IMG/VR virus record: IMGVR_UViG_3300008267_000043
Location: 1-63,096 of that record
DNA: 63,096 nt
Origin: a virus
Strand: one strand, 5' to 3'
Shown piece by piece: positions 51,008 to 54,273 of this stretch. The notes under the pieces were generated by a model. It ran no database searches, was not told where the DNA came from, and saw only the letters and a list, made by a program, of their open reading frames with translations. The translations under genes and the position numbers were made by a program. Each line of letters starts with the position of its first letter. Positions within the stretch are counted from its first letter, which is position 1.

Positions 51008-51024
51008 TTTCGTACCGTACGAAA
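51008..51024. promoter_or_regulatory. 17-bp palindrome, copy 6
   Basis: TTTCGTAC-C-GTACGAAA, whose right arm runs into the ribosome binding site (GAAAGGGAAC) of the gene at 51034. Either DNA binding or an RNA hairpin here could affect expression. Confidence 0.85.
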
Positions 51025-51033
51025 GGGAACAAC

Positions 51034-51903
51034 ATGGAACAAGTAAACGTAAGTAAGTTATCAGGCTCAGCCCTGATTGTGAATCTGTCACTGTCCGTAT
51101 GGACTGGCCGCAAGCTGGACAAGCGGGTGAGTGAGGAGGTTGACCAAGCCAAGTCAACCAAGACCCGTGCAGGTAACTACCACAAGAACCTGCTGGCTGG
51201 CTCAGGCAAGCTGGAGGAAATCACCAAGGTTGCCAACGCTGTGCGTACATGGCACTACACGGTGACTCAGCCTTGGGGTGACAACGGCGACCGTGTGCTG
51301 AACATGGCGTCATTCATGGACTACAAGTCACGGCTGGCGGAGTACGAGACTCAGTTTGCCACTGCTGTCAACATGTTTCTGAATGAGTACGACACGCTGG
51401 TTGCGGCGGCGGCGTTCCAACTGGGTGACTTGTTCAACCGTGAGGACTACCCACTGCGTGAGCAGATTGTGGACAAGTTTGGTTTCAGGTATGCGTTCAC
51501 GCCACTGCCGATGGCGGGTGACTTCCGTATTGACATTGGTGAGGAGGGACTGCGTGAGATGCAAGACCACTACGAGGGTGTGTTGACCACACGGCTCAAC
51601 GATGCGATGCGTGATGCGTGGGACAGGTTGCATGATGTGTTGTCACGTATGAGTGAACGACTGGCTGATGACGATGGTGGCAAGCGCAAGATTTTCCGTG
51701 ACTCGCTTGTTGAGAACGCCATCGAGGTGTGCGGGTTACTGCGTCACTTCAACATCACTGGTGACACACGGTTGGAGGCACTGCGTATGCAGTTGGAGGA
51801 CACGATGCGTGGCGTGGATGCGGCATCGTTGCGAGAGAGTGACATGTTGCGTGAGCAGACCAAGCGCAAGGTGGACTCTATGTTGGAGAAGTTTTCTCTG
51901 TGA
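51034..51903 (+). CDS. DUF3150-like protein, module partner 1
   Basis: A 289-residue mostly helical protein: LIVNLSLSVWTGRKLDKRVS, then AKSTKTRAGNYHKNLL, and a second half of long amphipathic helices ending KRKVDSMLEKFSL. The N-terminal W-T-G-R-K-x-D block is characteristic of the DUF3150 family found in phages beside MoxR ATPases. It is likely to be a cofactor or adaptor of the ATPase encoded next. Confidence 0.75.
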   Translation: MEQVNVSKLSGSALIVNLSLSVWTGRKLDKRVSEEVDQAKSTKTRAGNYHKNLLAGSGKLEEITKVANAVRTWHYTVTQPWGDNGDRVLNMASFMDYKSRLAEYETQFATAVNMFLNEYDTLVAAAAFQLGDLFNREDYPLREQIVDKFGFRYAFTPLPMAGDFRIDIGEEGLREMQDHYEGVLTTRLNDAMRDAWDRLHDVLSRMSERLADDDGGKRKIFRDSLVENAIEVCGLLRHFNITGDTRLEALRMQLEDTMRGVDAASLRESDMLREQTKRKVDSMLEKFSL

Positions 51904-51904
51904 T

Positions 51905-51921
51905 TTTCGTACCGTACGAAA
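51905..51921. promoter_or_regulatory. 17-bp palindrome, copy 7
   Basis: TTTCGTAC-C-GTACGAAA, 1 bp after the stop of the DUF3150-like gene and 58 bp before the MoxR-type gene. There is no consensus promoter between it and the previous gene. Confidence 0.85.
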
Positions 51922-51978
51922 GTTGTTTTTGTGTAAGTGTTGGGGTACAACCCGTACCCCGTTTGAAAGGAAGTAATC

Positions 51979-53064
51979 ATGGCTATGTATAAATCTCTGT
52001 CTCTGCAACAAACTGCTGACCTGATTGGTGCAGTGGGTGACGTTCAAACAATCTTGGCTCAGGGTGAAATGGGTATTGGCAAGTCGTCCATGCTCAAGAT
52101 GTTGCGAAACAATCCCAAGTTCAAGAACCACATGTTCTGTTACGTGGACATCACAACCAAGGATGTTGGTGACTTCGTTGTCCCCAAGATTCGCACGGTG
52201 GATGGTGTTGAGGTGTGCTCGTTCATTCCAAACGAGGAGTTCGGTATGCACTTGGTGGACACACCCATCATGATGATGCTGGATGAGTTGGGCAAGGCCA
52301 AGGGCGGTGTGATGAACGCATGTTTGCGGCTGATGCAGGAACGTGCACTGGGTACGTATACCCTGCACCCTGACTCTGTGGTGTTTGCCACAACTAACTT
52401 GAGCGTAGAGGGTATCGGTGACAACGTGCCACCACATGCTCGAAACCGTGTGACTCAGGTACGTGTAGCCAAGCCTACGGCTGATGAGTGGATAGGGTAT
52501 GCCATCAACAACGGTGTGAACCCCATCGTCATCGCCACTGTGCAAGAGTTCCCTGAGATGCTGGCATCGTTTGAGGACTATGAACGCCCCGAGCAGAACA
52601 CGTATGTGTATGACCCACGTGATGTACGTATGTCGTTCGTGACACCACGTTCATTGGAGAAAGCTGGTCACATCATTTCTCGCACGATGGTGTTGGGTGA
52701 CGATGTGCTGTGCCATGCGTTGAAGGGTACGGTGGGTGAGAAGGCCATGCACAACATGTTGACGATGGTGAAGATGGACACACAGTTGACTAATTGGGAT
52801 GACCTGATTAAATCCCCTGCGACTGCGACTGTGCCTACCAGTGCGGCGGCGGCATGTATGTTGGTGGCCAAGGCTGTGCAACGTATTGAGAAGGCATCCA
52901 TTGATTCATGGATGGAGTTTCTCCCACGTATGAGCAAGGAATCCCAAGGCTTGTTTGCACGTAGTGTGATGAGCGAGCTGTGCCCCAAACGTACTGTGGC
53001 GGCAACCAATCCCAAGTTTGCCAAGTGGGCGGCTGACAACAACTATTTGTTTGCCAAGAAGTAA
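51979..53064 (+). CDS. MoxR-type AAA+ ATPase, module partner 2
   Basis: A 361-residue AAA+ protein: Walker A QGEMGIGKSS (28-37), Walker B IMMMLDELGKA (97-107), sensor 1 VVFATTNLS (134-142), and PPHARNRVTQVRV carrying the arginine-finger region. Families of this type (RavA, NorQ, CobS) act with a VWA partner to remodel proteins or insert metals. Here the VWA partner is the next gene. A good ribosome site (GAAAGGAAG) precedes the ATG. Confidence 0.9.
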   Translation: MAMYKSLSLQQTADLIGAVGDVQTILAQGEMGIGKSSMLKMLRNNPKFKNHMFCYVDITTKDVGDFVVPKIRTVDGVEVCSFIPNEEFGMHLVDTPIMMMLDELGKAKGGVMNACLRLMQERALGTYTLHPDSVVFATTNLSVEGIGDNVPPHARNRVTQVRVAKPTADEWIGYAINNGVNPIVIATVQEFPEMLASFEDYERPEQNTYVYDPRDVRMSFVTPRSLEKAGHIISRTMVLGDDVLCHALKGTVGEKAMHNMLTMVKMDTQLTNWDDLIKSPATATVPTSAAAACMLVAKAVQRIEKASIDSWMEFLPRMSKESQGLFARSVMSELCPKRTVAATNPKFAKWAADNNYLFAKK

Positions 53065-53069
53065 TCAAC

Positions 53070-53086
53070 ATTCGTACCGTACGAAA
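53070..53086. promoter_or_regulatory. Palindrome, copy 8
   Basis: ATTCGTAC-C-GTACGAAA: the 15-bp core is intact and one outer base differs. The right arm merges with the ribosome binding site (GAAAGGAA) of the VWA gene at 53095. Confidence 0.85.
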
Positions 53087-53094
53087 GGAATAAC

Positions 53095-54273
53095 ATGTTT
53101 GTAACAACAACACAATCATTACCCGCAATCAAGCGGATTGAACGTGCACACGTAGAGTTGATGGCTCACAAGGCCACGATGGAATACGCTGGCATCATCA
53201 TGGTCGGCAAGTACAAGGTGGTGGACAACATCCCCACCGCATGTACCAACGGCATCGACTGTCTGTATGGCAAAGAGTTCACCGAGAAGTTGCCCGAGGC
53301 TGAGTTGCGTGGTGTCATCCTGCATGAGAACCTGCACAAGACTTTCCAACATACATTCCTGTGGCGGCATCTGTATGAGGAGAACGCACGGTGTGCAAAC
53401 ATGGCGTGTGACTACGTAATCAACTTACTAATCCACGACATTGAGAAATCATCCAACGGGTTTGTTGTACTGCCCAAGGTGGGTCTGCTTGATGAACGCT
53501 TCCGTGACATGGACTCCCAAGAGGTGTTCCGCATCCTGATGGACGAGGGGCAGGGCGAGGGTAACGGTGACGGTGGTGAGGGCGCTGGCCTTGACTCCCA
53601 TGATTGGGACACATCGGGCATGACACAGGAAGAAGTTGAACAGCACGTCAAGGAGGTCAACCAAGCCATCCGTCAAGGTCAACTGCTGGCTGGCAAGATG
53701 GGCGGCAAACAATCCCGTGAGTTGGGTGACTTGGTTGAACCCAAGGTTGACTGGCGTGAACAACTGCGTGACTTCGTGAATTCACTGGCTGACGGTAAAG
53801 ATATATCCACGTGGCAACGTGTCAACCGCCGCTGGCTTCAACATGACATGTACATGCCAAGCACTTTGAGTGAGAGCATGGGACGCATGGTGATTGCCAT
53901 CGACACATCGGGCTCTATCGGTGGTGAGGACTTGAACAAGTTCTTGTCCGAGGTGCAGTCAATCTGTATGAACGTGCAACCCGAGCTTGTTGACTTGTTG
54001 TATTGGGACACCGAGGTGGCAGGTCATGAGGTGTATGGACGTGACACACAGGACAAACTTGTGAAGTCAACCAAACCTGCTGGCGGTGGCGGCACTGACC
54101 CGTCGTGTATCCCTGAGTACATCGAGGCCAAGGGGCTCAAGCCTGACTGCGTGGTGGTGCTGACTGACGGCTACGTGGGGTCATGGGGTACGTGGAAACA
54201 TCCCGTGCTGTGGGCGGTGTGTGGTGGGTACAAGCCAACACCATCCGTGGGCGTGGCAATCTACGTTGATTAA
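53095..54273 (+). CDS. HExxH metallopeptidase-VWA fusion, module partner 3
   Basis: A 392-residue protein of the DUF2201 type. The N-terminal part has a zincin motif ILHENLHKTF (His77-Glu78, His81) followed by ANMACDYVINLLI, which supplies the usual downstream block. An acidic Gly-rich linker follows (about residues 155-185). The C-terminal VWA domain has a complete MIDAS: AIDTSGSIGG (about 268), GGGGTDP, and LTDGYVGSW (about 357). With the MoxR-type ATPase it should form an ATPase/VWA machine; the substrate is unknown. Confidence 0.9.
   Translation: MFVTTTQSLPAIKRIERAHVELMAHKATMEYAGIIMVGKYKVVDNIPTACTNGIDCLYGKEFTEKLPEAELRGVILHENLHKTFQHTFLWRHLYEENARCANMACDYVINLLIHDIEKSSNGFVVLPKVGLLDERFRDMDSQEVFRILMDEGQGEGNGDGGEGAGLDSHDWDTSGMTQEEVEQHVKEVNQAIRQGQLLAGKMGGKQSRELGDLVEPKVDWREQLRDFVNSLADGKDISTWQRVNRRWLQHDMYMPSTLSESMGRMVIAIDTSGSIGGEDLNKFLSEVQSICMNVQPELVDLLYWDTEVAGHEVYGRDTQDKLVKSTKPAGGGGTDPSCIPEYIEAKGLKPDCVVVLTDGYVGSWGTWKHPVLWAVCGGYKPTPSVGVAIYVD

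Follow-up and report, generated by a model that had tools for sequence, protein, structure and literature searches.

Palindrome dialects, their putative phage-encoded reader and a DUF3150-like/AAA+/zincin-VWA gene trio in an early-type phage region

Palindromes and genes at the locus

The window analyzed here is a stretch of 63,096 nt, the virus record IMGVR_UViG_3300008267_000043, in which a palindrome, TTTCGTACnGTACGAAA, occurs at nine places between positions 46827 and 54820. This region of ~8 kb, presumably of early type to judge from its position and direction, also holds a gene for a putative palindrome-reading regulator of an undescribed family (46952-47500, + strand, 182 aa) and a trio of consecutive genes, all on the + strand (51034-54273), for a DUF3150-like helical protein (51034-51903, 289 aa), an AAA+ ATPase of MoxR/Midasin-like type (51979-53064, 361 aa) and a zincin-like metallopeptidase domain fused to a VWA domain (53095-54273, 392 aa). 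With up to three mismatches allowed, the nine places gave 18 strand matches, compared with a mean of 0.06 and a maximum of 2 in shuffled sequences.

Copy 1 (46827-46843) lies upstream of the regulator gene; copies 2 (47712-47728), 3 (47788-47804) and 5 (49956-49972) were located by the same palindrome scan, and copy 4 (48678-48694) begins 44 nt past the end of the -10 element of a promoter-like sequence. A first-pass annotation of the window had placed copies 6, 7 and 8 one by one ahead of the trio genes, and so they are: copy 6 (51008-51024) lies 9 nt before the ATG of the DUF3150-like gene, its right arm extending into AAAGGG, which resembles a ribosome site; copy 7 (51905-51921) stands in the interval from the stop of that gene to the start of the ATPase gene, 57 nt before the ATG of the latter; and copy 8 (53070-53086), with one outer mismatch, lies 8 nt before the ATG of the VWA gene. 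The accompanying view of the palindromes as a feature of this module proved too narrow, because the putative regulator gene and many further genes are also preceded by them, and they follow promoters throughout the region. Copy 9 (54804-54820) is situated within a gene (54307-55299). A reading of the copies as intrinsic terminators was rejected: the whole palindrome is terminator-like at 2 of the nine places, one per strand, and a third is overlapped partly.

Relatives carry palindromes of different spelling, which we call dialects. TTCGTACnGTACGAA is the dialect of the window and its nearest kin, and other dialects include TTCATACnGTATGAA, TTCCCACnGTGGGAA, TTCATATnATATGAA and many more. Each of the 25 relatives fetched has one leading multi-copy palindrome, except that the relative G015 has two, and in 23 of the 25 the palindromes are confined to one stretch of ~3-18 kb round the trio; in G002 and G015 this stretch wraps the contig ends. 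Synechococcus phage MinM2 differs, its own palindrome, GGTTCAGnCTGAACC, being present in 21 copies over 58 kb, which is most of the genome. By hand count over 169 loci, 22 cores, some of which may be near variants of one another, reach five or more copies in one locus or more. No core exceeded two copies in 60 shuffled loci, and the shuffle counts for the window and for these loci rule out a chance origin of the palindromes. Single-copy matches in viral scans (most of 105, 120 and 120 stretches) were taken as chance. The cores are nearly uniform within a dialect: in three dialects, exact cores number 117, 102 and 34 and those with one mismatch 0, 5 and 0, and for TTCGTAC, covering 11 records, 117 cores had no mismatch and none had one or two.

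The palindromes are positioned ahead of genes. Among 48 loci, a palindrome was found at most 250 nt ahead of the start in 39 of 48 regulator, 43 of 47 DUF3150-like, 30 of 43 ATPase and 26 of 42 VWA genes, compared with 11% at random. The equivalent of copy 9 is kept within the matching gene of relatives in each relative's dialect, and residue 168 (V or I) of the encoded protein tracks the dialect; judging from the codons, this residue probably separates dialects because the palindrome lies in the gene. A separate element, CTATCyCGTGCA (46857-46873 in the window), stands in the interval from palindrome 1 to the regulator start in 15 of 15 rows, namely the window and 14 relatives. It is independent of dialect, and a G-rich tract lies upstream of the palindrome.

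A candidate reader of the dialects

All of 15 close relatives, and G016 as well, have the regulator gene, which is fast-evolving. A hidden Markov model search of the loci retrieved 100, then 101 homologous open reading frames, which correspond to 50 different proteins. The AlphaFold model (mean pLDDT 82) contains helices at 19-56, 72-83 and 88-105 with high confidence, so that residues 94 and 98 fall in the second helix of a predicted helix-turn-helix (HTH)-like pair (72-105). The HTH label rests on these predicted helices, because structure searches gave nothing significant. The regulator had no relatives at E 0.1 in tblastn against 50,697 phage records, none of nine scanned family members exceeded a Pfam cut-off, PHROGs gave nothing convincing, and among PDB sequences nothing matched better than ribosomal S7 at E 0.035. 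A chorismate mutase fold (VIA, best Z 5.2) was not trusted for a helical protein.

Two residues of this helix covary with the palindrome. In a set of four close dialects comprising 29 rows, residue 94 is T in 10 of 10 TCGTAC rows and in 0 of the 19 others, which have N or V, and this is the sole regulator column that separates TCGTAC. Residue 98 is L in 5 of 5 TCCCAC rows and in 0 of the 24 others, which have T; five further columns also separate TCCCAC. By comparison, no trio column, out of 289, 361 and 392, separates either dialect. Columns of two other genes (g55381 and g50400) for TCCCAC were set aside, as they comprised only 2 and 1 rows. On a tree of the DUF3150-like protein and the ATPase, from which the locus L169 was omitted, the four dialects need nine changes, and the independent pairs agree with the rule in 3 of 3 and 2 of 2 cases. 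Trio columns also separate TCATAT (3 rows; one ATPase column against all others, and seven ATPase and five VWA columns against TCATAC), and this dialect was therefore not used as evidence.

The strongest test of the residue-palindrome rule is a set of 17 new regulators from contigs picked by palindrome DNA alone. The rule was correct for all 17: TTCGTAC occurred with T94 in 4 of 4 cases, TTCCCAC with L98 in 3 of 3, and TTCATAC with neither in 10 of 10. G015, whose two regulators were omitted from the similarity, tree and column tests, offers a natural case in which two dialects and two regulator copies share one genome (loci L202 and L204), each copy being flanked by its own dialect. The copy at 59242-59766 has TCATAT at 59095 and 59980, and TCATAT recurs ahead of the DUF3150 gene, whereas the copy at 281-793, which carries L98, has TCCCAC at 60096, 135 and 1048.

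Promoter spacing and modes of action

Two sigma-70 promoter-like sequences on the + strand of the window precede palindromes: TTGACA-17-TATAAT (12/12) at 48606-48634, ahead of copy 4, and TTGACA-17-TATACT (11/12) at 50935-50963, ahead of copy 6. The promoter/palindrome pairs are thus 48606/48678 and 50935/51008, the second of which heads the trio. Across the loci, a sigma-70 site of 10/12 or better was found 0-100 nt upstream of 87 of 392 palindromes, compared with 1.9% for random places, and the centre of the palindrome mostly lies 36-62 nt past the end of the -10. On the + strand of the region, a palindrome centre lies 30-65 nt behind 36 of 42 perfect promoters, 64 of 79 with at least 11/12 and 78 of 108 with at least 10/12. 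The - strand control gave 0 of 12 at 10/12 or better; at 9/12 or better, 10 of 185 promoters on the - strand and 86 of 226 on the + strand had a palindrome at this distance.

Taken together, the computed dialects, promoter spacing and residue-palindrome covariation make it probable that the palindromes are operators of the phage-encoded regulator (46952-47500), with the trio as one tenant of its regulon. From them we infer binding, dimerization, repression over activation and an order of events. The regulator, a helix-turn-helix protein that is probably dimeric, would recognize a symmetric site whose centre is free and, once bound, would most likely stop or slow RNA polymerase just past initiation and again at later gene borders, in a stoperator-like manner. 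This roadblock is suggested because the sites lie ~40 nt behind promoters and ahead of the regulator gene and individual genes. The region would be switched down while the regulator accumulates, and palindrome and recognition helix would change jointly, giving each phage a private dialect.

The same reader and sites could instead serve activation or anti-termination, with polymerase being helped past early pausing or termination so that the early genes are turned on. The fixed spacing of ~40 nt would be equally suited to a protein that loads onto an elongation complex soon after it forms, and the palindrome of the regulator gene, ~100 nt from the ATG and preceding the conserved CTATCyCGTGCA, is placed as an activator site could be. 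However, promoters so close to the sigma-70 consensus, of which the 36 of 42 perfect sites with a palindrome are examples, need no activator, and repeated sites ahead of individual genes would fit a block better than loading that occurs once. We therefore regard activation as unlikely, though it is the foremost alternative to a repressing reader.

Much less probable is that the palindromes act as RNA, in the form of protein-bound hairpins in 5' leaders that control translation. The innermost symmetric letters, over a centre of 1-2 nt, covary as C.G, T.A, A.T and G.C; these letters are too close to pair in a hairpin, which argues for a dyad in DNA, and the base at the centre varies freely in both TCGTAC and TCATAC. 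Some features would suit an RNA: the right arms at 51008 and 53070 continue into AAAGG right ahead of the ATG, longer complementary arms occur at promoter-proximal sites in 5 of 6 TCCCAC and 8 of 19 TCATAC cases, and flank pairing reaches a z of 5.1 in TCATAC. By contrast, among 20 promoter-proximal TCGTAC sites a single one had extra outer arms, and other sites barely exceeded the control (3.5% compared with 2.4%). The leader at 48678 alone folds better than shuffles (z -2.7), whereas those at 51008 (z +2.2), 53070 (z +0.4) and 51905 (z -0.8) do not.

Least probable of all is that the palindromes mark recombination or cassette borders for the swapping of early genes and are homogenized by gene conversion. 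The early genes vary strongly among relatives while the palindromes persist, and recombination between palindromic repeats was inferred for Cluster O mycobacteriophages in the part of PMC4351075 consulted. Such borders, however, do not require dyad symmetry, promoter spacing or a covarying helix. Moreover, the loci L036 and L107 have near-identical, homologous leaders with the same promoter and unlike dialects, so that the palindrome letters evidently change in place.

Several observations weigh against the operator reading. The tree tests comprise three and two pairs and cannot reach 0.05. TCATAC is served by helices with V94 (4) or N94 (7), and the code is therefore not one-to-one. A genome scan in 12-residue windows, which omitted G015, ranks the helix 22 of 9724, and pairwise similarity is 0.79 for the helix versus 0.55-0.73 for neighbours in the close set, but 0.91 versus 0.83-0.91 overall. 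As two helix types serve one dialect, this similarity scan was not decisive, and it gave way to tests on diagnostic columns, on tree pairs and on the set of new regulators. In 26 loci of other dialects, including MinM2, no reader was recognized (best E 0.018), and Foldseek gave no match for the regulator at E 0.001 in PDB and BFVD. As many as 305 of the 392 sites have no strong promoter just upstream. Extra outer complementarity occurs at 16 of 78 promoter-proximal sites over all dialects, compared with 3.3%, which hints at RNA structure in TCCCAC and TCATAC. Finally, L514 and L524 carry 6 and 10 copies of TTCCCACnGTGGGAA (TTCCCAC) and none of the four genes. These two loci look like unrelated GC-rich phages, perhaps with an independent system.

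The trio, its surroundings and known systems

Of the three trio genes, the last has the firmest family assignment, both domains exceeding their cut-offs: DUF2201_N ("putative metallopeptidase"; 1.9e-21, 77.3 bits versus 23.2) and DUF2201 ("VWA-like"; 2.3e-16, 60.5 bits versus 26.4). H77, E78 and H81 of the HExLH motif, as well as D270-x-S272-G273-S274, T334 and D358 of the metal-ion-dependent adhesion site (MIDAS), are unchanged in 8 of 8 aligned VWA proteins, in agreement with the fusion of a zincin and a VWA domain with complete MIDAS proposed earlier. These motif letters predict zinc and metal binding and peptidase activity. The gene also matches PHROG 1314 (2.8e-80), whose label "HNH endonuclease" is contradicted by the motifs and by Pfam, which indicate a metallopeptidase plus VWA; the same label recurs in many phage records of this zincin-VWA family.

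The ATPase matches PHROG 1297 ("ATPase"; 1.2e-41), and a profile of nine aligned ATPases has Midasin as its top PDB match (2e-16). G34-K35, D102-E103, N140 and R157 are invariant in the nine, and we take them to be Walker A, Walker B, sensor 1 and the arginine finger; the MoxR-type motifs that had been reported from the window are thus conserved. At E 0.01 the ATPase itself matched no Pfam family, the AAA_3 profile had none in the window genome, and AAA_5 matched one of nine ATPase relatives. For the DUF3150-like protein, the third partner, the first-pass claim holds as regards its helical nature, the AlphaFold model consisting mostly of long helices (mean pLDDT 77), but the family match is weak (E 0.0011, 18.8 bits, under the 24.9 cut-off). 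The assignment as DUF3150-like draws on this weak match, the model and the neighbourhood, and the MinM2 relative carries a DUF3150 annotation. A structure search with the model gave no significant fold match.

The partners are kept together in relatives, as would be expected of the module that was first proposed. IMG/VR loci were retained only where there was room beside the gene, which left 53 of 79 loci found by DUF3150 (at least 5 kb behind the gene) and 37 of 80 found by VWA. Both partners are near in 51 of the 53, 34 in the order DUF3150-like, MoxR-type, VWA (D-M-V) and 17 as M-V-D, and both are present in 35 of the 37 (12 D-M-V, 21 M-V-D and 2 M-D-V). Among 50,697 phage records, VWA relatives occur in 755, ATPase relatives in 217 and DUF3150-like relatives in only 3; MinM2 (L012) has the ATPase, DUF3150 and VWA genes inside ~4.5 kb in an order unlike that of the window. 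On plasmids, a DUF3150-like relative was found in 44 records and a VWA relative in 97. ATPase, DUF3150-like and VWA genes are consecutive on Rhodovastum and Cupriavidus plasmids, and the DUF3150-like and VWA genes adjoin on a Simplicispira plasmid. The trio is thus common to phages and plasmids. Literature searches found no publication on DUF3150 or on the phages MinM2, Pag-Yong1 and Pra-JY27.

Elsewhere in the window, gene calls and PHROG matches place DNA polymerase A, exonuclease, helicase and primase-like genes at 93-9023 (+ strand), structural genes and terminase up to 46520 (mainly - strand) and a region of small genes from 46952 on (+ strand). A 61-base direct repeat is shared by both window ends. 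Integrase and resolvase families (PF00589 and PF00239) were each found in 0 of 21 records. A small protein (48218-48622) resembles what we take to be a stand-alone homing-endonuclease DNA-binding module and has no Pfam match. Another small gene (59790-60077), present in 25 of 25 relatives, encodes a nuclease-like protein presumably resembling VRR-NUC.

The trio is best read as a conserved set for ATP-driven protein remodelling. The AAA+ ring would work with a VWA co-chaperone bearing the zinc-peptidase-like domain and with the helical DUF3150-like protein as an adaptor, and the set may remodel, and possibly cut, some protein from which mobile DNA of any kind benefits. A role as a chaperone of virion or tail assembly was proposed for the MoxR and metallopeptidase-vWA pair of group 2.2 jumbo phages in the portion of Iyer et al. 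2021 consulted (PMC7824862). We consider this improbable for the trio, which lies in a non-structural region on the strand opposite to the structural genes and also occurs on bacterial plasmids, which have no virion; the plasmid occurrence argues against a purely virion role and does not thereby show a host target. It is possible, if doubtful, that the trio is instead a protease directed at the host, inactivating or maturing one of its proteins, as the first-pass annotation suggested: HExLH is kept in 8 of 8 aligned proteins, the location is of early type, and the occurrence on plasmids makes a host-side target plausible. With the trio on phages and plasmids alike, the question shifts from virion assembly to a need of mobile DNA generally.

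For dispersed exact palindromes, those of Cluster O among them, neither a reader nor a function has been known. In the present case one gene, and individual residues in it, emerge from the variation that occurs naturally among the sites, and reader, code and mechanism can therefore be tested directly with natural alleles. If the operator reading is true, it would provide a so far undescribed DNA-binding family in which many specificities already exist, and an example of operator and regulator co-evolving rapidly. Tentatively, this large and apparently non-integrating phage group might control its early genes through a new palindrome-reader family with more than 20 dialects, each genome changing all its sites in step with a few residues of the recognition helix. 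The dialects might then define immunity or compatibility among phages that infect one cell together, with G015 in the course of acquiring a second dialect and the trio as one function under private control.

CobS-CobT is a MoxR-type ATPase with a VWA partner. RavA-ViaA and NorQ-NorD likewise pair a MoxR-type ATPase with a VWA partner in remodelling; their targets are known and the accounts consulted mention no zincin domain, whereas the trio has one. ATPase and VWA relatives in Schitoviridae (Kosakonia phage Kc283) and the Escherichia rV5 group show ~21-33% identity among the matches listed. In the already published jumbo-phage pair, a MoxR gene also lies beside a vWA gene with an N-terminal metallopeptidase; the consulted portion of that paper names no DUF3150-like third partner, whereas the present trio occurs in a ~63 kb non-jumbo phage and on plasmids. 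The part of PMC7159879 consulted covers ternary MoxR-vWA conflict systems and names neither DUF3150 nor DUF2201.

As for the palindromes, titles and the beginnings of abstracts yielded no repeats closer than those of mycobacteriophages, which are described here from parts of the respective papers. The Start Associated Sequences of Cluster K (PMC3203893) likewise precede starts of non-structural genes, but are 13 bp, asymmetric and 3-7 nt from the start, whereas those described here are symmetric and vary in their distance from it. The 17 bp palindromes of Cluster O (PMC4351075), more than 30 per genome, are also two-armed with a variable centre; they are genome-wide and share one sequence, in contrast to one region, many dialects and a candidate reader here. 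The closest known counterpart is that of Cluster A (PMC6550527), where stoperators block elongation; one repressor likewise serves many sites, some at promoters but most elsewhere, and both motif and repressor vary between phages. The Cluster A sites are 13 bp, asymmetric and oriented with transcription, and the repressor serves lysogeny, whereas the present sites match on both strands and the protein has no family match. With symmetric sites, a protein unrelated to any of the families searched and no integrase or resolvase found in the 21 records, the regulator system is set apart from the repressor/stoperator system of Cluster A, and we file it, by analogy, as one that would work like that system without belonging to it.

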